DNA of 64,000 nt. Origin: Bradyrhizobium guangdongense. Lineage in GTDB: Bacteria > Pseudomonadota > Alphaproteobacteria > Rhizobiales > Xanthobacteraceae. A program made the position numbers and the translations under genes. How positions within the stretch are numbered: position 1 is the stretch's first letter; the number at the start of each line of letters is the position of its first letter. This document shows, piece by piece, positions 12,087-26,471 of the stretch. The notes beneath the pieces are model-generated. The model saw nothing but the letters and a program-made list of their open reading frames with translations, ran no database searches and had not been told where the DNA came from. The stretch is taken from NCBI RefSeq assembly GCF_004114975.1, contig NZ_CP030051.1, positions 6,448,001-6,512,000 of the forward strand. The letters are read 5' to 3'.

Positions 12087-13820
12087 GTGAATTTGCAAAT
12101 GTCCATCCCCTCGCGTGCTGCACTCTACCTGCGAGTCTCGACCATGAGGCAGGCCGAAGTCGATCTCTCGATCCCTGACCAACGCTCGCAGACAGCCTCC
12201 TATTGTGAACGGCAAGGGTGGCAGGTCATCGCGGAGTATGTCGAGCCCGGCGCATCTGCGATGGACGACCAGCGCCCGGAATTCCAGCGCATGATTGAGC
12301 GCGCGTCCGACGACGATCGGCCCTTCGACGTTATCGTGGTGCACAGCTTTAGCCGTTTCTTCCGCGACGCGTTCGGGCTTGAGATGTACATCCGCCGGCT
12401 GGCCAAGTACGGGGTTCGGCTAGTGTCGATCACCCAGGAGTTGGGCGATGATCCCTCGCAAGTGATGATGCGGCAGGTGATCGCGCTGTTCGACGAATAT
12501 CAGAGCCGCGAGAACGCCAAGCATGTGCTGCGAGCGATGAAGGAGAACGCTCGTCAGGGCTTTTACAACGGCTCTCGCGTGCCACTCGGCTACACCGTCG
12601 CGGACGTCGAGAAACGTGGACACCGGACAAAAAAGCGCCTCATCATCGACCCTGTCGAAGCAGAGACTGTGCGGTTGATCTTCAAGCTCTACCTCAACGG
12701 TGAAGCAACGAGTGGGCCTCTTGGCGTCAAGGAGATTGCCAAAACCTTGAACACGCGCGGCATGCGAACGCGGCTCGGCGCGCGCTTTGGCGTGGGGCCG
12801 GTGCACAAGATCCTGACCAATCCAATCTATATCGGCGAGTGGCGCTTCAACCGGCGCCATGCAAAAACCGGACGCGAGAAACCGGTCACGGAAATCATCG
12901 CCGTGGAGGTGGCGTCCATCATCGAGCGCGCCGCCTTCGACGAAGTCCAGCGCACGCTCGTCGCGCGCAATCCACGAACGACGCCGCCAAGGGTGACCAC
13001 GGGACCGATTCTACTGACGGGGCTCGCGCACTGCGCTAGTTGCGGCAGCGCCATGACGATGCGCAGCGGAACCTCCAAAACCGGGCGAGTTTATCGATAC
13101 TACTCCTGCTCAGCTGCTGCACGTATGGGCAAGACCGCGTGTAAGGGGCGGTCGATCCCAATGGACAAGCTAGACCAGTTGGTGACCAGCCATATTGCCG
13201 ATCGTCTGCTGGTTCCAGATCGTATCACCGCTCTCCTTGCGGAAATCGTTCAGAAGCGAGCGGTGGCCGGTGGCGAAGTCCAGGACCGCATCGACCAATT
13301 GTCACGGCAGGCAAGGGCCGCTGAGGAAAAGCTCCGGCGCCTCTATGCCCTGGTCGAAGATGGCATCACGGATCTGGACGAGGTCTTGAAAGCTCGTCTT
13401 GCCGATATCAAGGCAGATCGAGATCAGGCGCAAAGCGCGCTTGACCGGATCAAAAGCCGATCGTCAACCGCGTGCATCGACCGGAGCAAAATCGAACGCT
13501 TCGGCTCCCTGATGCGCGAAAGCATAACCGCGGGCAGCGTTCCGTTCCGCAAATCCTATCTGCGCTCACTGATTGATGCGGTCGAGGTTGATGACCGCGT
13601 CATCCGTATTCACGGGTCAAAAACGACCCTCGAACAAGCCATTATGGCCGGCGATCAACCGGAAAGGAGGGTTCGCGGTTTTGTACGCAAATGGCGCTCC
13701 CTAGGGGAGGCAAAGCGCGACACGATAAGCCCAAGCAAAATCAGCACAAATCAGCTTGGCTGCTTCGTCTCTGCTACCATGAGGTGCTACCACCAGCAAG
13801 CCTTCACGAATATCTTCTGA
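12087..13820 (+). CDS. large serine recombinase with altered C-terminus
   Basis: A 577-residue protein. The resolvase catalytic domain (residues 10-150) has ALYLRVST with the catalytic Ser and FSRFFRD with an active-site Arg. A recombinase domain and a zinc-ribbon-like region (CASCGSAM...CSAAAR...C) follow, then a coiled coil near residues 400-460. The GTG at 12087 has AAGGAG 6 bases upstream. From codon 536 the frame enters the 17-bp tRNA-Glu repeat and then island DNA, so the last 42 residues (RSLGEAKRDT onward) are probably not native. Catalysis should be unaffected. Confidence 0.9.
   Translation: MNLQMSIPSRAALYLRVSTMRQAEVDLSIPDQRSQTASYCERQGWQVIAEYVEPGASAMDDQRPEFQRMIERASDDDRPFDVIVVHSFSRFFRDAFGLEMYIRRLAKYGVRLVSITQELGDDPSQVMMRQVIALFDEYQSRENAKHVLRAMKENARQGFYNGSRVPLGYTVADVEKRGHRTKKRLIIDPVEAETVRLIFKLYLNGEATSGPLGVKEIAKTLNTRGMRTRLGARFGVGPVHKILTNPIYIGEWRFNRRHAKTGREKPVTEIIAVEVASIIERAAFDEVQRTLVARNPRTTPPRVTTGPILLTGLAHCASCGSAMTMRSGTSKTGRVYRYYSCSAAARMGKTACKGRSIPMDKLDQLVTSHIADRLLVPDRITALLAEIVQKRAVAGGEVQDRIDQLSRQARAAEEKLRRLYALVEDGITDLDEVLKARLADIKADRDQAQSALDRIKSRSSTACIDRSKIERFGSLMRESITAGSVPFRKSYLRSLIDAVEVDDRVIRIHGSKTTLEQAIMAGDQPERRVRGFVRKWRSLGEAKRDTISPSKISTNQLGCFVSATMRCYHQQAFTNIF
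13692..13708. repeat. distal attachment repeat of the tRNA-Glu island
   Basis: TGGCGCTCCCTAGGGGA is identical over 17 bases, in the same orientation, to the 3' end plus CCA of the tRNA-Glu gene at 26397-26413. This is the duplicate left by site-specific integration and defines the far end of the island. Confidence 0.85.
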
Positions 13821-13824
13821 GGCA

Positions 13825-14343
13825 TCATCGCGGCTCAAAATGGCACGTCCCATCAAAGCCTTCTTCAGGCGGGCCAAACGCAGCAGCGAAGCCCATCGCG
13901 AGCTTGATTACGCGCACGGCATCCGGCCAGAGGCTCACACCGCGCTTCATGCCCTTCTCCCACGCGACAATGACGCCAGCGATGCGGATGAGCGAACCAT
14001 CACGGATGATGATGCCTTGCTTGAGAGCGTTACCTTTGGCATCGACCAGTTCTGGCTGCTTCTTAGGCGATGCGAAGATGAAGGCGATAGCGCCTTCCTT
14101 CGTCTCCTTCCAAGGAACATACATGTTCTTCGTATCAGCGAAGTTCAGGCCGATGAAGGTCTGAATTTCCTGCTGGAAGCGTTGCGTGTAGTCGTCAGAC
14201 GCAGTCGCCTCGGTCTTGTACTTGCCGTCCGCATAGTCACCCTCCATGTCGGGCTCAGACAGCTTCGGTCTACGCGCGGTCATCACTTCAGTCACGAACG
14301 GGACGTACTTGAAGGTTTTGTCATGCATCACGGAAGGCTCCAT
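13825..14343 (-). CDS. putative phage-type ssDNA-binding protein
   Basis: A 172-residue acidic protein with alternating strands (FKYVPFVTEVMTARRP, GKYKTEATASDDYTQRF, AIAFIFASPKK, GIIIRDGSLIRIAGVIVAW). Size, the KYKTEATASDDYTQRF helix and overall pattern recall the T7 gp2.5 / DUF2815-like single-stranded DNA-binding proteins of phages and satellites. The resemblance is weak and I mark the function as tentative. AAGGAT lies upstream of the ATG at 14343. It is the first gene inside the distal island boundary. Confidence 0.5.
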   Translation of the reverse strand: MEPSVMHDKTFKYVPFVTEVMTARRPKLSEPDMEGDYADGKYKTEATASDDYTQRFQQEIQTFIGLNFADTKNMYVPWKETKEGAIAFIFASPKKQPELVDAKGNALKQGIIIRDGSLIRIAGVIVAWEKGMKRGVSLWPDAVRVIKLAMGFAAAFGPPEEGFDGTCHFEPR

Positions 14344-14431: not shown

Positions 14432-16150
14432 CTAGGGCTTGGCTTGACGCTTTTGAACGTCGTTCAGCGTGGCAATAGTGCGTTCAAACGCCTCCTCGCA
14501 CCGCGCACAAAGGGATCGGAAGTGTGCAGCGAGCGACCCATGCTCTTTTAAAGCGCTCGCTTCTAGCTTCGCTCGTTCTCCGGTGTGATGCCCCGATACC
14601 TTGCTTCTCAGGTGGTGAAGTTCCTTGAGTGGTTCTGCGATTTGATCTGCCGTGAGGCTGTCTTCCGAACGAAGTATTTCCTGGATCAGCTTAAGGCTTT
14701 GCCATGAGTTTTCGAACTTAACGCCGGAAACACTTGCGAGCTTGCGAAGCTCAGTCGCCACAAAGCCCTCTACGAGCATTTGATCCAGAGCAAGCAACTC
14801 GTCGGCCCATTCCTTCGAAGATGTGGTGACGGGATAATGCACTCTATCGCGCACCTGTGTCCCTCGCGCTCGCCACCAAGCCGGAGAATTGCGATCAAGC
14901 TCCGAGACGGCATACCGCACCGATTGCAATGGATCGGGCTCGGTCGTCCATTCACCTTTGAAATCAGTTTGATAGGCTCGCTTCGAAATAGGCCCCTTGG
15001 GCCGTTCATTGTGAAGCTTCCAATGCTGCTGCTCTTTGAACGGGAGGTGCTGGAGATATCCTATGTAGGTATGGACTTGACCAGCTTCGTTGATGTCAAA
15101 CGTCTTCAAATGCCAAGAATTGCGGCACGTGATAGAACGGTCCGCCAAATCGTACTTGTCCGGGTCTGCTTTGTACTTGGTCAGAACGTCGGGACTGAAA
15201 AATGCAGGCGATATCTCGAACGGCTTGTCGGACTTCGTGAAATAGTTGCTCAACGCAGAAGGAGCGCAAGACCATTCAACGAGCCTCTCGTTTTTCCAGT
15301 CTTGGATTATGAAGGTCTCGTATTGACGGGCATTCGGGTCACTTTCTCGTTTCCATTCTTCGATCAATTCGTCGACGGTGACACTTGGTCTAAGAATTTG
15401 CCCACCGTGAATGTAGCTCCCAGTTCCCCCTGATAGCGCTGAGTTGTAGAAAAGATCGGGAGCGTCGAAGTGGCGCTCGGCATGGTCCCAATGGCTGAAC
15501 GATCCCGGTAGGAACCGCGTCAAATCGAATTTCCGATAAAGAGCGTATTCACCAACAGCCATAAATTCCGCTAGTGGCTTGGCCTTGATCAGCACGAGTG
15601 TCCTACTGCGGTCAAAATCGCTAGAGCCACGGTCGCAAAAAATCTTGATGACCTCCTCTAGGTCGCCCTCTGAATTTAGACGGCAATACGCGCTCCTCTC
15701 GGCAATGAAATGTAAGCCAAGCGAATGAACCAGCTTTTGGCTAAGCTCTATGGGGGCATCGTAGTTTGACATGCCCTCAAAGGACCGCCGAAACACTATC
15801 GGCTCCGCTCCATGAAGTGGGTGCCCGTCGGGCAGGTCGAAGGGCGGCTCAAGGTACATGCGATGTCCATGTCCTCCGCCCCACGCCTTCTGAATGCACC
15901 ACGTCTTATCGACGTAGAAACTAGTATCGTAGAGCTTGTCTTTGTCAGGGCTAACGAGGTTTGCTGCGCGGGCGAATATCGAGATTATCAGCAAGCTCTG
16001 GAAGCCAGCGTAGAGGATGACGGATTCGTCCTCCTCCTCTGTCAACAATCGCACGCCATCCCGTTCGGCCCCGACTAACCAATCCTTGTCGGCTCCAGAG
16101 GAGCTTACATGGACTGCGCTAAGGTGCTCATAGAACTTCCGCTCTTGCAT
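14432..16150 (-). CDS. 572-residue uncharacterised protein with HEPN-like motif
   Basis: I do not recognise the family. The start is placed at the ATG at 16150 (MQERKFYEHLSAVHV), because the longer frame to 16330 overlaps the divergent resolvase start. The protein is soluble, rich in aromatic residues, with many Trp and Tyr. Near the C-terminus LRSKVSGHH (Arg 515, His 521) fits the R-x4-6-H signature of HEPN nucleases and sits between predicted helices as in HEPN folds. Position in an island beside a helicase and a PIN nuclease suggests a defence role. This is inference. Confidence 0.7.
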   Translation of the reverse strand: MQERKFYEHLSAVHVSSSGADKDWLVGAERDGVRLLTEEEDESVILYAGFQSLLIISIFARAANLVSPDKDKLYDTSFYVDKTWCIQKAWGGGHGHRMYLEPPFDLPDGHPLHGAEPIVFRRSFEGMSNYDAPIELSQKLVHSLGLHFIAERSAYCRLNSEGDLEEVIKIFCDRGSSDFDRSRTLVLIKAKPLAEFMAVGEYALYRKFDLTRFLPGSFSHWDHAERHFDAPDLFYNSALSGGTGSYIHGGQILRPSVTVDELIEEWKRESDPNARQYETFIIQDWKNERLVEWSCAPSALSNYFTKSDKPFEISPAFFSPDVLTKYKADPDKYDLADRSITCRNSWHLKTFDINEAGQVHTYIGYLQHLPFKEQQHWKLHNERPKGPISKRAYQTDFKGEWTTEPDPLQSVRYAVSELDRNSPAWWRARGTQVRDRVHYPVTTSSKEWADELLALDQMLVEGFVATELRKLASVSGVKFENSWQSLKLIQEILRSEDSLTADQIAEPLKELHHLRSKVSGHHTGERAKLEASALKEHGSLAAHFRSLCARCEEAFERTIATLNDVQKRQAKP

Positions 16151-16310
16151 GGCCCGCCTTTCCCACTGCGCTCCCGGACCTTGTGGGCGTCCTGCGAAGC
16201 AAGCAAGCCATGCAATTCGGAATCCCCGGGATTCCAGAACGCATATTGTTCGTTGTGCACGAATTGATCTAACGTCCGTTACATCAAAATGTGTATGAGG
16301 GCTTTTGAAG

Positions 16311-17015
16311 GTGGCACAGGGAAAATTCATCTCCTATCTACGGGTCTCGACCGACAAGCAGGGCCGAAGTGGCCTTGGCATTGAAGCGCAGCGAGAAGCC
16401 GTCGCGAGCTACCTAAATGGCGGCCGATGGACACTCGTGGCTGAGTATGTCGAGACGGAGAGCGGGCGGAAGTCCGATAGACCAAAGCTCGCTGCGGCTC
16501 TCTCTCACGCTAAGGCCATCGGCGCGAAGATGGTCTTTGCGAAGCTCGACCGCCTCACACGTAACGTGGACCTGCTGCGCTCCCTCGTGGCGAGTGACGT
16601 TGACTTGGTATTCTGCGACCTCCCAAGCGTCCCTCCCGGCCCCATGGGCAAGTTCCTACTCACGCAGATGGCGTCTGTGGCAGAGCTTGAGGCTGGCTTG
16701 ATCGGGGAACGCACCAAGAAAGCGCTTGCCGCAGCAAAGGCGCGCGGGGTGAAGCTTGGCAATCCTAACGGCGCGCGTGCTCTCCGCGGGAAGCAAACCG
16801 GCAACGCTGAAGCAGTAGCCAGGATTAGGGAGAAGGCGGTACAGCGAGCAATGGACCTTCAAGGCATCATCGAGAACATCAAGCGCTCAGGCATCACAAG
16901 CGTTCGTGCCGTGACAGAAGAGCTTAACCGCCAGGGCATCAACGCGCCTCGTGGCGGCGAGTGGCACCCTACCGCCGTCGCGCGGCTCCTCAACCGCCTC
17001 CCCAAAGCCGCCTAG
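16311..17015 (+). CDS. small serine recombinase (resolvase/invertase type)
   Basis: A 234-residue protein. The catalytic domain starts ISYLRVSTDKQGRSGLGIEAQ, with the nucleophilic Ser in YLRVST, and has KLDRLTRN with the conserved Arg residues. After the long helix (ERTKKALAAAKARG) comes a C-terminal helix-turn-helix (SVRAVTEELNRQG). The GTG at 16311 follows GAGG by 10 bases. It diverges from the 572-residue unknown gene, with about 160 bases between them. It may resolve dimers or invert a segment of the island; no repeat pair was identified. Confidence 0.9.
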   Translation: MAQGKFISYLRVSTDKQGRSGLGIEAQREAVASYLNGGRWTLVAEYVETESGRKSDRPKLAAALSHAKAIGAKMVFAKLDRLTRNVDLLRSLVASDVDLVFCDLPSVPPGPMGKFLLTQMASVAELEAGLIGERTKKALAAAKARGVKLGNPNGARALRGKQTGNAEAVARIREKAVQRAMDLQGIIENIKRSGITSVRAVTEELNRQGINAPRGGEWHPTAVARLLNRLPKAA

Positions 17016-17898: not shown

Positions 17899-20052
17899 GT
17901 GGATATCGTTTTCGGCGAAAACTCTAACACGGTAGCGGCGCGCTCCTTGCAAGATGCATTGAGAAGGCTGGAAATATCCGGCACGCTGTACTTAGGATAT
18001 CCAGTCCTATCAACGGCCGACGCGAAGGTTTTTGTTGATGCGCTGCTTGTGAGCCAGTCACACGGCCTTATCGCCTTCGATCTTTCGTCGCATGTTGACC
18101 CTCATCCAAATGACGACCAAATCGCCGAGATTACGGAACGGCAAAACCAGATTTATGCCTCGATCTACAACAAGCTAAACACGCACCGAGACCTTCGCAA
18201 AGGAAGGAGCTTGGGCGTTACAATCAATGTCCTTACGTGTCACCCTTCTCTGGAGCGGACCATTGAAGAAGACGATGTCGTTATTTGCCCGCCAAACCAA
18301 CTAGCAGAGGTGTTGGCGGAATTTGAGCCAGTCGACGAAGCTCTTCTTCGCCCTCTTAATGCCGCGGTGCAGCGGGTTTCGACGCTTCGACCACTGAAGC
18401 GCAGAGAGAACGTTACTAAAATTGGCTCGCGCGGCGCCATCCTCAAGAAGATCGAGAAAGAGATCGCCAATCTTGACCAATGGCAAAATCGAGGGGCAAT
18501 TGAATACGCAAATGGCCCCCAGCGCATTCGCGGACTGGCCGGGTCGGGCAAGACGGTGGTCTTGGCACTGAAGGCAGCGTATTTGCACGCGCGGCATCCG
18601 GAATGGAAGATCGCAGTAACCTTCCAGTCGCGCTCGCTTTACCAACAGTTTCGAGATTTGATCCGGCGCTTTATGTTCGATCAGATTGAAGATGAACCCG
18701 ATTGGTCGAGCCTGCTGGTCATGCACGCGTGGGGCAGCAACCGGGATCAAGGGGTCTACTCGTCCATATGTAATCTGTACGACGTTGGCGCCATGGATTG
18801 GAGGACCGCGGACGCAAAGTATGGCAGTCGAGCTTTCGAAGGGGCCTGCGACGAACTAAACGCCGTTATTAATCAACAGGGGCCTAAGAGGTTATTCGAC
18901 GCGGTCCTCATTGACGAGGCCCAGGACTTTCCTACTTCCTTCTTTCGAATGATCTACAATGTAGTACCTAGTCCCCACCGCATCATGTGGGCCTACGATG
19001 ATCTTCAGAACCTAGGCGACTACGAGATGCGGTCTGAGCACGAGTTGTTCGGATCAGATGCGGCAGGACGCCCTCTGGTTACGCTGCGCAACGAAGCCGA
19101 TCGTCCAAAGGAAGATATCGTGCTTCCGGTCTGCTACAGGAATACGCCCTGGACGCTTGCAACTGCCCACGCACTTGGATTTGGGCTTTACCGGCCCCAG
19201 GGCTTAGTTCAGATGTTCGAAGAACCATCGATCTGGCCTCGCATCGGCTACGAAGTTGTCAAAGGTCGTTTGCAGCTTGGGCAGCCGATCTCAGTGCGAA
19301 GGAGCCCGGAGTCCTACCCGAGCTACTTTGTAGATCTCCTAAATCCCGATGATGCTATTAGATGCGAGGCGTTCAATACCGCCGACGAGCAATACGCTGC
19401 CTTAGCTGACGCAATTTGGACCAACATCCACGAAGACGAACTGGATGCGACGGATATTTTAGTCGTGCTTCCTAGTGCGTATACGTCACGCAAAACGGGG
19501 GCGAGCGTTATGGCTGCCCTTGCTGCGCGGAAGGTCAATGCGCATCTCGTGGGTGTGACAACAAGCAGAGATGAAGTGTTTTCCCCCAATTCAGTTGCAG
19601 TGACGCACATCTTTCGTGCGAAAGGCAACGAAGCGCCGATGGTCTACATAGTAAATGCCGAGTTTTGTCAGGTAGGCTTCGAGCTCAGTCGGAAGCGCAA
19701 CATTTTATTTACCGGTATCACTCGATCCAGATGTTGGGTTCGACTGTTCGGTGTCGGCCCTCTAATGCAAGCATTAAAGGACGAGGTCGAGGAGGTTCGC
19801 AGGCGCCAATTCGCGCTGGAATTCACCTATCCTACCGAAGAGGAGTTAAAGAAACTCGCGCGCGTTCACCGCGACATGACGGACGAGGAGCGAAAGGATT
19901 GGGAGCGCAAGATCAGTGATGCTGGAGAACTCTTCCGAGCTGTTATCGATGGAGATTTACCCTTAGAGGCTCTGCCACCTGAACTTCAGAAAAGTATTAT
20001 TGCAGTCACCCGGCGTGGCGGTGACGCTAGAGGTACCAAGGGCAAGAAATGA
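17899..20052 (+). CDS. SF1 helicase with degenerate NERD-like N-terminus
   Basis: A 717-residue protein. The N-terminal region (residues 25-115) has GTLYLGYPVL then VDALLVSQSHGLIAFDL, a NERD/PD-(D/E)XK-like strand pattern without the usual catalytic Lys. The helicase core has Walker A GLAGSGKT near residue 212, Walker B VLIDEAQDF near 338, an HIFRAKGNEAP segment near 575 and a motif VI-like LFTGITRSRCWVRL near 605. This is a UvrD/DNA2-like translocase. The stop overlaps the next start (ATGA), so it is coupled to the DUF2290 gene. The combination suggests a two-component defence or repair system. Confidence 0.85.
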   Translation: MDIVFGENSNTVAARSLQDALRRLEISGTLYLGYPVLSTADAKVFVDALLVSQSHGLIAFDLSSHVDPHPNDDQIAEITERQNQIYASIYNKLNTHRDLRKGRSLGVTINVLTCHPSLERTIEEDDVVICPPNQLAEVLAEFEPVDEALLRPLNAAVQRVSTLRPLKRRENVTKIGSRGAILKKIEKEIANLDQWQNRGAIEYANGPQRIRGLAGSGKTVVLALKAAYLHARHPEWKIAVTFQSRSLYQQFRDLIRRFMFDQIEDEPDWSSLLVMHAWGSNRDQGVYSSICNLYDVGAMDWRTADAKYGSRAFEGACDELNAVINQQGPKRLFDAVLIDEAQDFPTSFFRMIYNVVPSPHRIMWAYDDLQNLGDYEMRSEHELFGSDAAGRPLVTLRNEADRPKEDIVLPVCYRNTPWTLATAHALGFGLYRPQGLVQMFEEPSIWPRIGYEVVKGRLQLGQPISVRRSPESYPSYFVDLLNPDDAIRCEAFNTADEQYAALADAIWTNIHEDELDATDILVVLPSAYTSRKTGASVMAALAARKVNAHLVGVTTSRDEVFSPNSVAVTHIFRAKGNEAPMVYIVNAEFCQVGFELSRKRNILFTGITRSRCWVRLFGVGPLMQALKDEVEEVRRRQFALEFTYPTEEELKKLARVHRDMTDEERKDWERKISDAGELFRAVIDGDLPLEALPPELQKSIIAVTRRGGDARGTKGKK

Positions 20053-20723
20053 GTATCGAGGCGCTGTGCAGGCGTGTCACCGGTTTCGGCTTCCAACTGC
20101 TCGCCAATGATTTTGCGCTAGATGCTCGCCAACACAAGGTCGACCGTCTCTCAGCGAGGCAAAAGGCGCTGATGTGGAGTAGAAATCCACTGAACTCGTT
20201 GATGAGCGGAAATCCAGCGCGGCTGGTCGATTACCTGACTATCTTGGAAAATCAAGAATACTCCTACCTTATGAGAGACGGAGGAGTGTTTCAGATATCA
20301 TATGTATTCAACGGAGCCGAAATTGAACGTCATCGACTATGCTTCCATCCTTGTCCTTTCGCGATAACATCTCGCGACATACGGAACTTCGAAGGAGGAT
20401 TGCTGGAGCTTATCCAGCATTCCTTCATGGATCGACTAGAAGACAGCGTTTTGATGCGGACACCGATTAGGTTTGACTTCGCGCCCGACCAAGCCGCAGC
20501 TTCGCATCCCGCCTCCCACATTACGCTGAACGACCCCTCCTGCAGGGTCCCCGCGAGGTGTCCGCTCGCCTTTGACACCTTCATGAAATTCATCCTTGAG
20601 AATTTCTATTCAGACGTATGGGAGCATCCGAAAATTCGTGAAGCGCTGGTTTTCCGACAAGAGGTTGAATGCTTGTCTCAGCAGGACCGAACGCGTGCAC
20701 ATCTTAGCTGGTCGCATGCTTAG
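20049..20723 (+). CDS. DUF2290-family protein
   Basis: A 224-residue protein of the DUF2290 family, recognised from HPASHITLNDPSCRVPA and the following FDTFMKFILENFY, and from QISYVFNG earlier. No catalytic function has been assigned to the family as far as I know. The ATG overlaps the helicase stop, so the two are translationally coupled and probably act together. The pattern of conserved His, Cys and Arg near residues 158-170 could be an active or nucleic-acid-binding site; that is inference. Confidence 0.75.
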   Translation: MSIEALCRRVTGFGFQLLANDFALDARQHKVDRLSARQKALMWSRNPLNSLMSGNPARLVDYLTILENQEYSYLMRDGGVFQISYVFNGAEIERHRLCFHPCPFAITSRDIRNFEGGLLELIQHSFMDRLEDSVLMRTPIRFDFAPDQAAASHPASHITLNDPSCRVPARCPLAFDTFMKFILENFYSDVWEHPKIREALVFRQEVECLSQQDRTRAHLSWSHA

Positions 20724-20788
20724 CTTCAGCCACCGGCCGTCTTTCGAGTGAGTACAATCTCAGCTAATCTTCGGGAAGGAGTATGGCA

Positions 20789-21427
20789 ATGTTCTCCTCT
20801 CAAACGCCCGCCGACAAGCTCGCTACGGCACTATCGGAATATCAAGCGGACTTCGAAAAGAAGCTTAGATCGCAGCCCAATCCCGACGCGGAGGAGGCGA
20901 GACAGCGCATCAGTCGTGCAGAACAACTTGTGCGCCAGAGCGGACTAGGTAAGGCGCTCGAAACTCTTCTTGAACATACCAAGTATTGGCCAAGCTGGTC
21001 CAAGCGCGATGATTTCCGAAAATGGGTCGGCTTTCCTGTAGGCGAGGTGCTAGCAAAGGAGCAGCGAGACGAGAAGCAGTATAGGACGACGTCCACCACC
21101 GTAGTGTGTTTCCTCTATGGAGCAGAGCAATACGCCATAGTGTTCACCGACAATGGTGGCATGAGCTTACCCGATGGTGAGTACTATCGTAGCGGCACAG
21201 TCGATTTCGTAGCGGGCCGAGAGACTGTACTTGGCCTCAACCTCACCCAAGAGAGCAACGAATACACTAGCGACTGGCGCTATTGTGGGGTCTACGCCTT
21301 GAAGATGGGTGTTTGGAGCAAAGCGCTGCTAGAAATGGCTTCGCACATTCGCGCCCACAGCAGAGATACAAGCATTCGGCACAATGACGAACGTACAATC
21401 GCTCAGGCGAAGAACATTTCTGTTTAG
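20789..21427 (+). CDS. uncharacterised third gene of the helicase/DUF2290 cluster
   Basis: A 212-residue protein. AAGGAG at 20776-20781 is 7 bases from the ATG at 20789 but only one from an in-frame ATG at 20783, so 20789 is chosen. The N-terminal half is helical (EYQADFEKKL, RISRAEQLVR). The C-terminal half looks beta-rich (TTVVCFLYGAEQYAIVFTD, DWRYCGVYALKMGVW). I recognise no family. It starts 65 bases after the DUF2290 stop in the same direction and probably belongs to the same operon. Confidence 0.7.
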   Translation: MFSSQTPADKLATALSEYQADFEKKLRSQPNPDAEEARQRISRAEQLVRQSGLGKALETLLEHTKYWPSWSKRDDFRKWVGFPVGEVLAKEQRDEKQYRTTSTTVVCFLYGAEQYAIVFTDNGGMSLPDGEYYRSGTVDFVAGRETVLGLNLTQESNEYTSDWRYCGVYALKMGVWSKALLEMASHIRAHSRDTSIRHNDERTIAQAKNISV

Positions 21428-21457: not shown

Positions 21458-22489
21458 CTAAGTATCAAGGAAATCCCATTCACTTCCCATCACCCAGCGT
21501 AACGCACTGAGTTTGCCGTTTATCATCCCCCACTCGAAGTCTGTCCAAGGCCCAAGATTTTCGAGGCCAACCTCTTCCTCGGTACGTTTGGCCGCAGCCA
21601 ATGCGCCGTTCCATACAGTGTCTATGGTCATCTTATTCCGCCGCTTCGGATGTTTGTCCCACTCTTCCTTCGTTACGAGCTTATGCTTACCGCGCTCGAT
21701 AGCAATCCTCAGGTTCCAGTGACGATTGTACCAGACCTGCCGGAACAGCAGGTGCTCGGCTTCCACAATTTCGCTCAGCAAGCGCGGCTCTTCGCGGTAT
21801 TCAAACTCCCACTTCACTTCCTCCATGCGCTCAGGAGCGTACTGCTGGAGAACTTCGCCGACGGCCAGCGCATAGGTCGAGTTCTCAGATACAAACAATT
21901 CTGCAAGGTCGGGGTGTGGCCGACGTTCGTCAACGCCCATATCCGAAAAATCGTGTTTGTTATGCGTGACAAAAGCATACTCGTGGTCGGAAGCGCCAGT
22001 AGAGAGAACGTCGCGGTAAGTCTCAATCAGAACGGCGTCCCCCATGCTGTTCTTGTCTCGATGGAAGGGTGCTTGTTTGTCCAACGCGCGCTGAGCCGAT
22101 CTTAGTTTGATCTGCTGATTAGCGTCGATTGCCTGCACGGTCGAAAACAGCTTCTCAATCTGCCTGACACTCTCTTGGACCGCCTCCCCAAGAATAGCGA
22201 CGCGATGGTCCACGTCATCCAAGCTCGACAACACTTGATCGCGGCCATTTGGGGAGCCGAATTGTCTCACTGCGTCTTTCACACGCTTGAAATGCGAGCT
22301 AAGACTTTTTGCGCTGTCGCGGATGATCCGCTCTTTGTTGCGCGCGAACTCCACGACTGATTGCTGTGGCAGAATGAGTGAGACTTCACCTGCTTCGATC
22401 AGCTGCTCAAGGGCAGCAAGGGTCGGTTGATGGCGGTAATCCTTAGCCATGTCCAACCAAACGCAGGTATCGATCAGAAGTTTTAGCAT
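21458..22489 (-). CDS. PIN-domain nuclease, large form
   Basis: A 343-residue protein with a PIN-like fold in the first 200 residues: LIDTCVWLD (Asp 7), VVEFARNK (Glu 47), SMGDAVLIE (Asp) and FVTHNKHDFSD (Asp). These acidic residues bind Mg or Mn for RNA cleavage. The C-terminal 140 residues are of unknown type. Unlike VapC it is not preceded by an antitoxin gene. It converges on the helicase cluster with a 30-base gap, so it may belong to the same defence locus or be a stand-alone nuclease of DUF4935-like type. Confidence 0.75.
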   Translation of the reverse strand: MLKLLIDTCVWLDMAKDYRHQPTLAALEQLIEAGEVSLILPQQSVVEFARNKERIIRDSAKSLSSHFKRVKDAVRQFGSPNGRDQVLSSLDDVDHRVAILGEAVQESVRQIEKLFSTVQAIDANQQIKLRSAQRALDKQAPFHRDKNSMGDAVLIETYRDVLSTGASDHEYAFVTHNKHDFSDMGVDERRPHPDLAELFVSENSTYALAVGEVLQQYAPERMEEVKWEFEYREEPRLLSEIVEAEHLLFRQVWYNRHWNLRIAIERGKHKLVTKEEWDKHPKRRNKMTIDTVWNGALAAAKRTEEEVGLENLGPWTDFEWGMINGKLSALRWVMGSEWDFLDT

Positions 22490-22848: not shown

Positions 22849-24285
22849 CTATAGATCGAGAGCATTCACCCAACGCTCATCATCATGGATGGCAGCACGG
22901 ACGGCCTCACTCGCACCGGGAAGCGTACTCTTGGTCTTCAATAGAGGCCTTCGCCCGATACGTTGGTAAAACTCGTCAAAGAGAACACCAGTTGCGGTGC
23001 GGACCTTCGAGAGCGGAACGATAATGCTATCGAAGACGGGAAAAGCAGGCACATTCTGAACCATCAACTTCGTCATGGTGGCAGCCACAACTTCAGCTTC
23101 GGCAAACATCAACTCCGCCCAGGTCAGGCTACCGTCCAGCCGTCTCAGGCCCGGGAAGGCCGCCAGAGCTTTAGCGCCCATATCCTTGGCGGGATAAATG
23201 CTTTGTAAGTCACGCCCCGTTCGTGCCCGATAACTTGCCGTCTTCTCCTTCGGCCACTTCGCAAGCGGGGAGCCGGTCGTGAGGCTCAAATTGACCCAAT
23301 CCTTTGCAACCATTTTGTCATCAATCTGGATACGGCCCCACAGATCGGCTTGCGTATCCAGCGGCTGCTTCGTCAGCCCATGGAAAATCGTGAGATATGA
23401 TGCCGAAATATCGATCTCCACCGTAGGTTCTCCATCGATCTTGATCAGCGCCCGTTGTTCTCCAGGCAGCCACTGATAAGCACCATCGCCATAAGCGTAG
23501 AGGCGACCGCCTTTGTTCCATGCGAAGGTTTCAACGTCCTTGCCCGTATTGAAACCTCGATAGAGGCCGAAGAACCGCGCTCCCTCGATTTTGAAGGTGC
23601 ATAGAAACTCGTTTAGGCGGCGCACTTGAGATGCCAGTGCATCGGTGCGCTCGTTAGGCACATAGGGTACATACCGGCCCTCGATCTTTCGTGCTCTGGA
23701 CTTGGGAGACCACTCCCACTCTCCAAAAGTTCGCAACTCAAGCGGCGCGCGGTCCTGGACAAAGTGCTCCTCTATTTTCGCGAGCGAGACGCCATAATCC
23801 TGTGCCAGGGTGAGCAGCGCGGCGGTTGCTTCGAAGACCGAAGCCTGCCCCGGTAGCTTCATAGGTCCACCATCGAAGCCGAGAGGATGGAAGCGATGTT
23901 GACCGGGTACACGGGAGAGCAATTCAAGAGCCTCTAGGCCCCTCCACGCGCTATCGAATGCTGGAAAGGTCACCGGCCCCCCCGTAAAGCCGTCCTTCTT
24001 TAGGGAACGAAACACAGTGTCTGTCCGATGAGCACCGGCCTTTGCCATTAGCAGATGCCCTACAAAGCGTCCCAGAGCGTTACGCAGGCTTTCAACGCCC
24101 TTAGGGCCTTTTCTGTAACGGCCACGCGTTGGCACCTCAGAGCGCACGCTATCGAGCTTCCGTGCATGTTCCAATGCACTGATGCGCGCGGTTAGGTCGG
24201 TGATGAGTGCTGTCGCTTCTCGCGAAACAACACGCACCATGAAGTCCGCATAGTTATCTTGTGGCTTTTCGATTTCTGTGGGCAT
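22849..24285 (-). CDS. uncharacterised protein with polymerase-like motifs
   Basis: A 478-residue protein. Residues 290-300 read EIDISASYLTIFHG, similar to the Asp-containing motif A of replicative polymerases. Near residues 395-430 it reads MFAEAEVVAATM followed by PAFPVFDSIIVP, reminiscent of the HDxxxVP motif C of family-A-like proteins in phages and satellites. The N-terminal half is helical. It lies beside the integrase and 460 bases from the PIN gene. I infer a replication function for the island. The similarity is to motif pattern only, and the first His of motif C is absent. Confidence 0.7.
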   Translation of the reverse strand: MPTEIEKPQDNYADFMVRVVSREATALITDLTARISALEHARKLDSVRSEVPTRGRYRKGPKGVESLRNALGRFVGHLLMAKAGAHRTDTVFRSLKKDGFTGGPVTFPAFDSAWRGLEALELLSRVPGQHRFHPLGFDGGPMKLPGQASVFEATAALLTLAQDYGVSLAKIEEHFVQDRAPLELRTFGEWEWSPKSRARKIEGRYVPYVPNERTDALASQVRRLNEFLCTFKIEGARFFGLYRGFNTGKDVETFAWNKGGRLYAYGDGAYQWLPGEQRALIKIDGEPTVEIDISASYLTIFHGLTKQPLDTQADLWGRIQIDDKMVAKDWVNLSLTTGSPLAKWPKEKTASYRARTGRDLQSIYPAKDMGAKALAAFPGLRRLDGSLTWAELMFAEAEVVAATMTKLMVQNVPAFPVFDSIIVPLSKVRTATGVLFDEFYQRIGRRPLLKTKSTLPGASEAVRAAIHDDERWVNALDL

Positions 24286-24516: not shown

Positions 24517-26307
24517 TCATTTCGTGCGGTTCTTTCGAGGCTTCATAGTGCCGCGAGCATGCTCAACCATGCCGATGGTCTTCACGCGCGACAGGTCAAG
24601 GCCGGGATACTCAATCTTGTCTATCGCCTGTTTGAGCGTCTTCACGCCCCAACGCTCAATCATGGCTTTTGCGCCATACCTCCTGCTCACTGACTTCCCA
24701 TTGCTGCGGCCAGCTAGGGCGTCGCGCAACTCTTCGTCAGGCGTCGCTTGCCGGAGCGCATCCTGAAACCCATGGCGGAAGCTATGGAAAACTTTGTTCG
24801 TGTCGGTCACGCCAACGTTGTCGAGGTATCGCCCCCACCATTTGGCCCAAGCTCTCAGCGCGCCTTTCTGGTCGGGCGCAACGGTCGGTAGCAGCCAAGC
24901 GTGCTCCCCGGCCGCCCTGCGCTTTGCAACGTAGCCGAGGAAGCCGACCTTCACGAGTTGAGGGTGAACTGGCACAACGCGCTCGGACGTTTTGGTCTTC
25001 AATCGTCGGCCCGCCTTCAGGTCGCGAGTAAACCACATGAGTGGTGCGCGCGTTTGGTCATCCACTCGAATGTCGGAGACGCGAAGGCCCGCATATTCTG
25101 CTTGCCGCGCTCCCGCAAACAGTGCCAGCAGCGGAAGCCAAATGGCTGCATTGCCTTTGCCACCTTCGGGCACGCGGCCTTCTGTGAATAGCGGCGCGTC
25201 GAATATCGTCTGAAGGTCGCGAGCGTCGAATGGCGCGCGGTCTGACTGATCCTCCTCAAGCCTCATTTCGCTGAAGGGGTCTGCCCAAGGCACATCATCA
25301 GGCACAAGCCCGTTGTGATGCCCCCATCCTGCTATCGCTTGCACCGCTCCCAACTGCTTGTTGACGGTGCCGGGGCTAACCCTCGCGGCTGTCGGATGCT
25401 GCCGCCCATGTTCGCTCAACTCGGGCAGAGATGCTTTAAGGAGCTTGCCTCTACGGATTTTGGGGACTAGCTGCAACGCTTCGCGGAACACCCTCGCATG
25501 TGAACGCCGCAATTCCTGTATCGAGAGGTTCCCGTGCAACTGGATAAACATCTCCACAGCACGACTATACTCATGCTCCGTACCTTCGGGCCGCTGACGC
25601 TCCTTCTTCCAACCTTCTAAGGCGTCCCGTAACGTGCCACTTTGCCCTGATGAATGCGTGACTTTGCCAGCCATAGGCGTCGTGACTGGCTCTCCCCGGC
25701 TACGCCGTTGGAGGTCGCGATAGGCCCTCACTTGCTCTTGAAGCACGGCAAGAGAAAGCTTCCGGTAATCGGCGCAGACCTCGTCCAAACTGATGCCGAA
25801 CGTCTCAAGTAGATCTGCGACCTCCGCTCTGACGTGGCTTACGTCAGCATTCGCGAACGCCTCTTGTGCGAGGTCCAGTATTTCACCGATGTCGAACTCA
25901 TCAGACGAGTGAGCGTCGATCTCGAAACGGTTAAGAGACGCACGATCCTGGTCGCTCAGCCGCACTAGCCCTCTTTGCCGGTCCAAGTCGTCGCTTTGCA
26001 GGATGCTGGCATAGTAGAACTCGGTCATGCGCCTAATCTCGATGGCGCTCAGGCTCTTGCGAACGGGCTTGGCCGCTAGCAGCGCTTCCGCGCGTTCAAG
26101 CGTCCGATCGAATTCCATTTGGACCGGTTTGGCGCGTGTGTTCGCTTCCTTGGTGGCCTTGGTCCCCAGCGATCTTTTCAGAAACACGAGACGCGGCTTA
26201 TCAAGCTTCAGAACGCGCGCGACCGCCTCTTGAAGACGCTTTGGCACACGTTGCTGAGCGTAGTACGTGCCGTGTCTGTCCTTAATCAGTCCCATCAACG
26301 CGCGCAT
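24517..26307 (-). CDS. tyrosine integrase of the tRNA-Glu island
   Basis: 596 residues from the ATG at 26307. The N-terminal DUF6538-like region (IKDRHGTYYAQQRVPKRL) is followed by a SAM-like core-binding domain near residues 225-340 and a catalytic domain. FAGARQAEYAGL holds the first Arg, KTKTSERVVPVH the Lys, HSFRHGFQDALR the His and second Arg, and SVSRRYG the nucleophilic Tyr. The second His of box III appears replaced (LAGRSNGKS). The gene points away from the tRNA, with its start 90 bases from the attachment core, as expected for an island integrase. Confidence 0.92.
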   Translation of the reverse strand: MRALMGLIKDRHGTYYAQQRVPKRLQEAVARVLKLDKPRLVFLKRSLGTKATKEANTRAKPVQMEFDRTLERAEALLAAKPVRKSLSAIEIRRMTEFYYASILQSDDLDRQRGLVRLSDQDRASLNRFEIDAHSSDEFDIGEILDLAQEAFANADVSHVRAEVADLLETFGISLDEVCADYRKLSLAVLQEQVRAYRDLQRRSRGEPVTTPMAGKVTHSSGQSGTLRDALEGWKKERQRPEGTEHEYSRAVEMFIQLHGNLSIQELRRSHARVFREALQLVPKIRRGKLLKASLPELSEHGRQHPTAARVSPGTVNKQLGAVQAIAGWGHHNGLVPDDVPWADPFSEMRLEEDQSDRAPFDARDLQTIFDAPLFTEGRVPEGGKGNAAIWLPLLALFAGARQAEYAGLRVSDIRVDDQTRAPLMWFTRDLKAGRRLKTKTSERVVPVHPQLVKVGFLGYVAKRRAAGEHAWLLPTVAPDQKGALRAWAKWWGRYLDNVGVTDTNKVFHSFRHGFQDALRQATPDEELRDALAGRSNGKSVSRRYGAKAMIERWGVKTLKQAIDKIEYPGLDLSRVKTIGMVEHARGTMKPRKNRTK

Positions 26308-26396
26308 CAAAAGCTACGGCCCTCTGCTACCACTTGAGTGCAGCCAAGGCTATGATTTGCGTGATGATTTTGATTTATCAGGGCTTCTAGAGCCGC

Positions 26397-26413
26397 TGGC
26401 GCTCCCTAGGGGA
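26397..26413. repeat. proximal attachment repeat within tRNA-Glu
   Basis: The 17-bp TGGCGCTCCCTAGGGGA is the reverse complement of the tRNA's 3' 14 nucleotides plus CCA. It is matched exactly at 13692-13708. Integration here keeps the tRNA intact. Confidence 0.85.
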
Positions 26414-26471
26414 ATCGAACCCCTGTTTCAGCCTTGAGAGGGCCGCGTCCTAACCGCTAGACGAAGGGAGC
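26397..26471 (-). tRNA. tRNA-Glu(CTC) with encoded CCA
   Basis: A 75-base cloverleaf on the minus strand. The acceptor stem GCTCCCT/AGGGAGC, the D-arm with AGCGGTTAGGA and the T-arm CAGGGGTTCGATTCCCCT are all typical. The anticodon stem CGGCC/GGCTG surrounds loop CTCTCAA, giving anticodon CTC for Glu. The CCA is encoded at the 3' end. It serves as the integration site for the adjacent island. Confidence 0.95.

Follow-up and report, generated by a model that had tools for sequence, protein, structure and literature searches.

Introduction

The closest described counterpart of the locus studied here is the anti-phage system Helicase+DUF2290. Rousset et al. 2022 reported that an ATP-dependent helicase together with a DUF2290 protein produced specific inhibition of T7; the pair showing this inhibition came from a P4 satellite, and other bacteria were likewise found to carry the system, at prophage hotspots (PMC9122126). 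In the parts of later sources that deal with it, the system is listed in a review on shared domains (PMC10952713), is counted among the defence helicases in work on Hachiman (PMC12278908), has its helicase assigned to the UvrD subfamily in a Hachiman preprint (PMC10925250), and is tallied by name in several surveys (PMC10855318, PMC11811056, PMC11878078, PMC12390725, PMC11291487). A Pseudomonas aeruginosa pair, PA1372/PA1371, bears the same system name (PMC11637435), and the co-occurrence of its two members among mobile genes had been noted already in 2015 (PMC4410645). The passages of this literature that mention DUF2290 give no biochemical mechanism for it. Here we analyse a stretch of 64,000 nucleotides from Bradyrhizobium guangdongense (contig NZ_CP030051.1, positions 6,448,001 to 6,512,000; hereafter the window), in which a helicase gene, a DUF2290 gene and a third gene (gene 3) follow one another. 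An original prediction made from the sequence had proposed that the three act in concert against phages or plasmids. Our analysis indicates, with high confidence, that the locus is the known two-gene Helicase+DUF2290 system carried on a tRNA-Glu integrative element, and that gene 3 is an unrelated passenger.

The helicase-DUF2290 pair

The three open reading frames (ORFs) are real and lie where they had been predicted:

17899-20052, + strand: helicase ORF, GTG start, 717 amino acids (aa)
20049-20723, + strand: DUF2290 ORF, 224 aa
20783-21427, + strand: gene 3, longest ORF, 214 aa
20789-21427, + strand: gene 3 from its preferred start, the second ATG at 20789, 212 aa

Their coordinates also bear out the four-base overlap described between the helicase and DUF2290 genes. 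The product of the first gene matched the PADLOC "Helicase" profile PDLC03002 (E 1.7e-228) along residues 2-702 of its 717, as well as Pfam PF13538 (E 1.8e-10) and superfamily 1 (SF1) UvrD-type models. Both its Walker A motif (GLAGSGKT, residues 212-219) and its DEAQ box (DEAQD at 339) are retained. The second product matched Pfam PF10053 (E 4.3e-38) and, over nearly its full length, the PADLOC "DUF2290" profile PDLC02998 (E 6.9e-35). The locus therefore has the two features by which membership of the system (PADLOC profiles; Rst_HelicaseDUF2290 in DefenseFinder) was judged, namely a UvrD-type helicase matching the system's own profile and, adjacent downstream on the same strand, a DUF2290 gene. 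An Escherichia coli plasmid pair matches the same PADLOC profiles. Both proteins, their order, their strand and a mobile setting are thus common to the window and to the described system; the window locus differs in the extra downstream gene 3 and in a DUF2290 protein rather far removed from its enterobacterial counterparts (it shares 29.6% identity with the E. coli plasmid copies), its closest named relatives being two proteins from Bradyrhizobium at 85-86%. Judged by these profile matches, the first two genes belong to the published Helicase+DUF2290 anti-phage system, the anti-T7 result having been obtained with another copy. The defence role foreseen for the pair is in this way supported by the PADLOC matches and by the published account of the system (PMC9122126), but it had already been described and named. 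For the same reason, the statement that no function is established for DUF2290 fails for the system, whose anti-T7 activity is in print in that account, and still holds, in the literature passages cited above, where its biochemistry is concerned.

The N-terminus of the helicase had been described as degenerate and NERD-like. The catalytic motif of NERD nucleases is D...E-x-K. The Asp of the NERD-like motif (D47 in window numbering) is invariant in all 14 aligned helicases, and an E-x-K following it was found in none of them, the window's included. Pfam gave no NERD match up to E 0.1. "Degenerate" therefore fits a motif that, on the alignment, appears to keep the Asp alone, whereas NERD ancestry is not demonstrated.

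The structure predicted for the DUF2290 protein was confident (mean pLDDT 89.2). Fold comparison yielded no match backing a specific chemistry, and Pfam scans under relaxed settings, covering every sequence of both alignments, returned nothing convincing beyond DUF2290 itself. All 15 diverse sequences compared share D77, P101, P103, R141, H153, H157, R166, F178 and Y187; P154 and Y62 are found in 14 of them and D143 in 13. No cysteine was conserved in as many as 13 of the 15, so that wide conservation among the His and Cys residues originally proposed for mutation is confined to the histidines. As far as conservation can indicate, the Asp, Arg and His residues that never vary resemble an active site, and DUF2290 is probably the effector of the pair. 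A remote relationship to TumE, suggested by eye from an R-x-D...H-x-x-x-H likeness, was dropped; hhalign gave a probability of ~0 against a small and narrow set of 11 TumE sequences.

Conservation of the pair

DUF2290 is rare. Counting the window's genome each time, it is present in 4 of the 397 genomes searched for the order, 4 of 385 for the class and 3 of 265 for the genus; it also occurs in 16 plasmid records. No occurrence was confirmed in viral contigs, with a single-sequence query reaching close relatives only. Sixteen other DUF2290 loci, eight of the 16 plasmid records and eight from genomes, were examined across Pseudomonadota, Actinomycetota, Bacillota and Cyanobacteriota. Fifteen of them also hold a helicase homologue; at the sixteenth (L032) the contig breaks off ~116 bp ahead of the DUF2290 ORF. 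Fourteen intact loci have the helicase gene immediately 5' of DUF2290 in the same orientation, and the spacing of 13 out of 15 pairs, the window counted, ranges from a 20-bp overlap to a 1-bp gap (with starts as annotated or from the longest ORF). Another genome of the genus holds a decayed pair (L036, 5963-6485), with the middle of the helicase missing and DUF2290 truncated: of the helicase there remain the N-terminus (85% identity across 93 residues) and the 26 C-terminal residues, and of DUF2290 the N-terminal 59.

In the Thioflavicoccus mobilis plasmid pTHIMO01 (L005, 640-7543) the helicase-DUF2290 pair lies within a BREX locus. It is flanked by an annotated DNA methyltransferase and by a 673-aa protein matching positions 666-1291 of the 1332-long PglX profile, as if the pair had been inserted within a split PglX.

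These distributions bear on an alternative in which phages are not the main target and the pair instead works chiefly against plasmids, or serves to maintain mobile elements. Such a role would agree with the presence of DUF2290 in 16 plasmid records and with the helicase having no match among 50,697 phage records. Inactivation of PA1372, which is likened to the window helicase by system name only, is also reported to lower plasmid rep expression and to compensate or remove the cost of the plasmid (PMC4410645). We nevertheless consider this role unlikely, since T7 inhibition is reported for the P4-satellite pair (PMC9122126) and one pair is located inside a BREX locus.

The third gene

Gene 3 begins 59-65 bases past the DUF2290 ORF on the same strand, and no terminator-like site was found between the two. 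Among the aligned relatives whose N-terminus is complete, nearly all start at the second ATG (20789), and directly 5' of it lies a ribosome-binding site, GGAAGGAG; the length of 212 residues given originally is thus the one that fits. The protein had no Pfam, PADLOC, NCBIfam or PHROGs match, and fold comparison, in which a StARkin or lipid-transfer-like fold was among the candidates, assigned it no fold. It is more than a chance ORF, because relatives covering 99% of it are 44-79% identical and because the base differences from one of them (L010), 60, 50 and 133 at codon positions 1, 2 and 3 over 211 codons, are richest at position 3. Searches recovered 28 proteins with the single sequence and 38 with a profile, the window's included, one relative bearing a Pfam cold shock domain. 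Gene 3 is a member of a small conserved alphaproteobacterial family. Within the genus it was found in 2 of 195 genomes, the window's included, and it had no match in the phage collection. Of nine genomes that came up with the gene-3 profile, seven were left out, each match being a ~42-residue stretch in an ORF of >1,100 aa (E 4.5e-4 to 7.2e-4).

Ten loci with gene-3 relatives were read in context: four plasmids (Rhizobium, Agrobacterium, Bradyrhizobium), contigs of Roseibacterium, Palleronia and Maritimibacter, one viral contig, a distant match at 24% and a same-genus match at 38%. No helicase or DUF2290 homologue lies in the flanking sequence covered at any of the ten, of which L008, L009 and L010 have a short flank on one side; nor is gene 3 present in any of the 16 other DUF2290 loci, L036 included. 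As gene 3 is missing from the pair loci, and the pair genes from the gene-3 loci, the concerted three-gene system is not supported, with the proviso that the closest gene-3 relatives lie outside this count. The relatives have other neighbours. In three of the four plasmids they are adjoined by a zeta toxin and an unknown 340-aa protein, and in two marine species they are followed by a weakly HATPase-like protein (L009, 1175-2206; L007, 10616-11398; PF13581 E 0.0025, below cut-off). We read gene 3 as a mobile-element gene without a fixed partner and, most likely, as a passenger unrelated to the pair. Two facts weigh against this: the nearest gene-3 relatives (60-79%) are outside the ten loci, and two Bradyrhizobium DUF2290 loci (85-86%) are outside the 16.

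In L007 the HATPase-like frame appears broken. In the same-genus locus (L074, 2940-7704) the 38% relative stands just after ORFs that look, by eye, relaxase-like and tra-like.

A three-gene variant would make gene 3 a lineage-specific accessory, such as a regulator, an immunity protein or a second effector, in Bradyrhizobium-like hosts. Gene 3 could, for example, have been recruited in uncultured Bradyrhizobium-like bacteria as a third component tuning the defence, perhaps through a ligand-binding, helix-grip-like fold. Its strand, its short distance from DUF2290 without an intervening terminator-like site, and the position of its closest relatives beyond the loci read in context would all suit this proposal. 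The two-way absence described above, which includes one gene-3 relative of the same genus, speaks against it, as do the gene's own ribosome-binding site and its differing neighbours elsewhere. Both the variant and its recruitment are in our view highly improbable.

Genomic setting

The prediction that the genes lie on a mobile island stood up well, on the evidence of a tRNA-Glu gene, an adjacent integrase, a 17-bp repeat and a lower GC content. The features concerned are:

26397-26471, - strand: tRNA-Glu (CTC), the integration site (ARAGORN; Rfam RF00005)
24517-26310, - strand: tyrosine integrase next to the tRNA (PF20172 E 2.3e-10; PF00589 E 6.2e-6, just below cut-off; phrog_1 E 7.3e-21)
21458-22489, - strand: PIN gene, downstream of gene 3 (PF16289 E 8.3e-28)
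13692-13708: 17-bp direct repeat of the tRNA-Glu 3' end, an exact match to 26397-26413
12087-13820: CcrB-like serine recombinase ORF, whose 3' part holds the 17-bp repeat

Base composition alone would give ~0.001 such 17-bp matches, and the repeat is probably the far attachment site of an inner element. The pair sits in the 12.7-kb segment bounded by the tRNA-Glu 3' end and this repeat, most of which has a GC content of 0.53-0.58, compared with ~0.64 for the greater part of the window to the right of the tRNA. As the far repeat is inside the 3' part of the serine recombinase ORF, the inner element probably abuts an older insertion. In four relatives, similarity to the window starts at the tRNA end (26395-26397), and nothing left of the tRNA matches the window. 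The left end of the island was determined from the 40 kb to the left of the window, where the sequence shared with one relative (G920) ends at position 6434709 of the contig (G000:C1). By this comparison the genome has ~39.7 kb where the relative has ~2 kb, which gives an island of ~40 kb.

Three other proteins are encoded on the - strand nearby. A 632-aa protein of the inner element (14432-16330) had no Pfam, PADLOC or NCBIfam match and weak PHROGs matches only. Adjoining the far repeat, a 172-aa protein (13825-14343) resembles Gp2.5-like single-stranded DNA-binding and annealing proteins (phrog_112 E 8.6e-13). The sole match of a 478-aa protein encoded between the PIN and integrase genes (22849-24285) was to phrog_4756, of unknown function (E 1.7e-11).

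That the helicase serves as an accessory protein in repair or replication, with only an incidental part in defence, as its UvrD-type fold might suggest, is scarcely credible given its scarce and uneven occurrence (3 of 265 genus genomes hold DUF2290, one as a decayed copy), its mobile setting and its dedicated partner.

Discussion

The analysis assigns the locus to a known system and removes a component that was likely false. It also supplies two testable points for a system whose DUF2290 protein is given no mechanism in the passages that mention it: the DUF2290 residues conserved over 15 diverse homologues, and a NERD-like helicase domain without catalytic residues.

A tentative scheme, in which our doubt somewhat outweighs our confidence, can be drawn by analogy with other systems. 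The SF1 helicase would engage abnormal DNA arising from phage (or plasmid) replication. Its NERD-like N-terminus may serve for binding rather than cutting, a role we infer from the Asp being kept in all 14 helicases and E-x-K in none. Having sensed such DNA, the helicase would then license DUF2290 as the effector. A precedent is offered by Hachiman, in which, as the relevant part of that work reports, the helicase can hold an effector and release it on sensing damaged DNA; there, HamB belongs to the Ski2-like helicases of superfamily 2 (SF2), and HamA is a nuclease of the DUF1837 family with a D-E-x-K site (PMC12278908). What may be shared is the logic by which a helicase acts as sensor and a small protein is its separate partner. 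The window, however, has an SF1 UvrD-type helicase and DUF2290 in place of HamB and HamA: DUF1837 had no match among ten proteins scanned with Pfam, and the partner matched DUF2290 only. With Gabija (GajAB) the common element is the UvrD-type helicase, which gave weak GajB profile matches (best E 5.5e-4); a GajA-type OLD/TOPRIM partner turned up neither in the Pfam scan of ten proteins nor in the PADLOC scan of eight. Helicase+DUF2290 would thus work like Hachiman or Gabija, through a sensor helicase and an effector, while doing so without the effectors of either.
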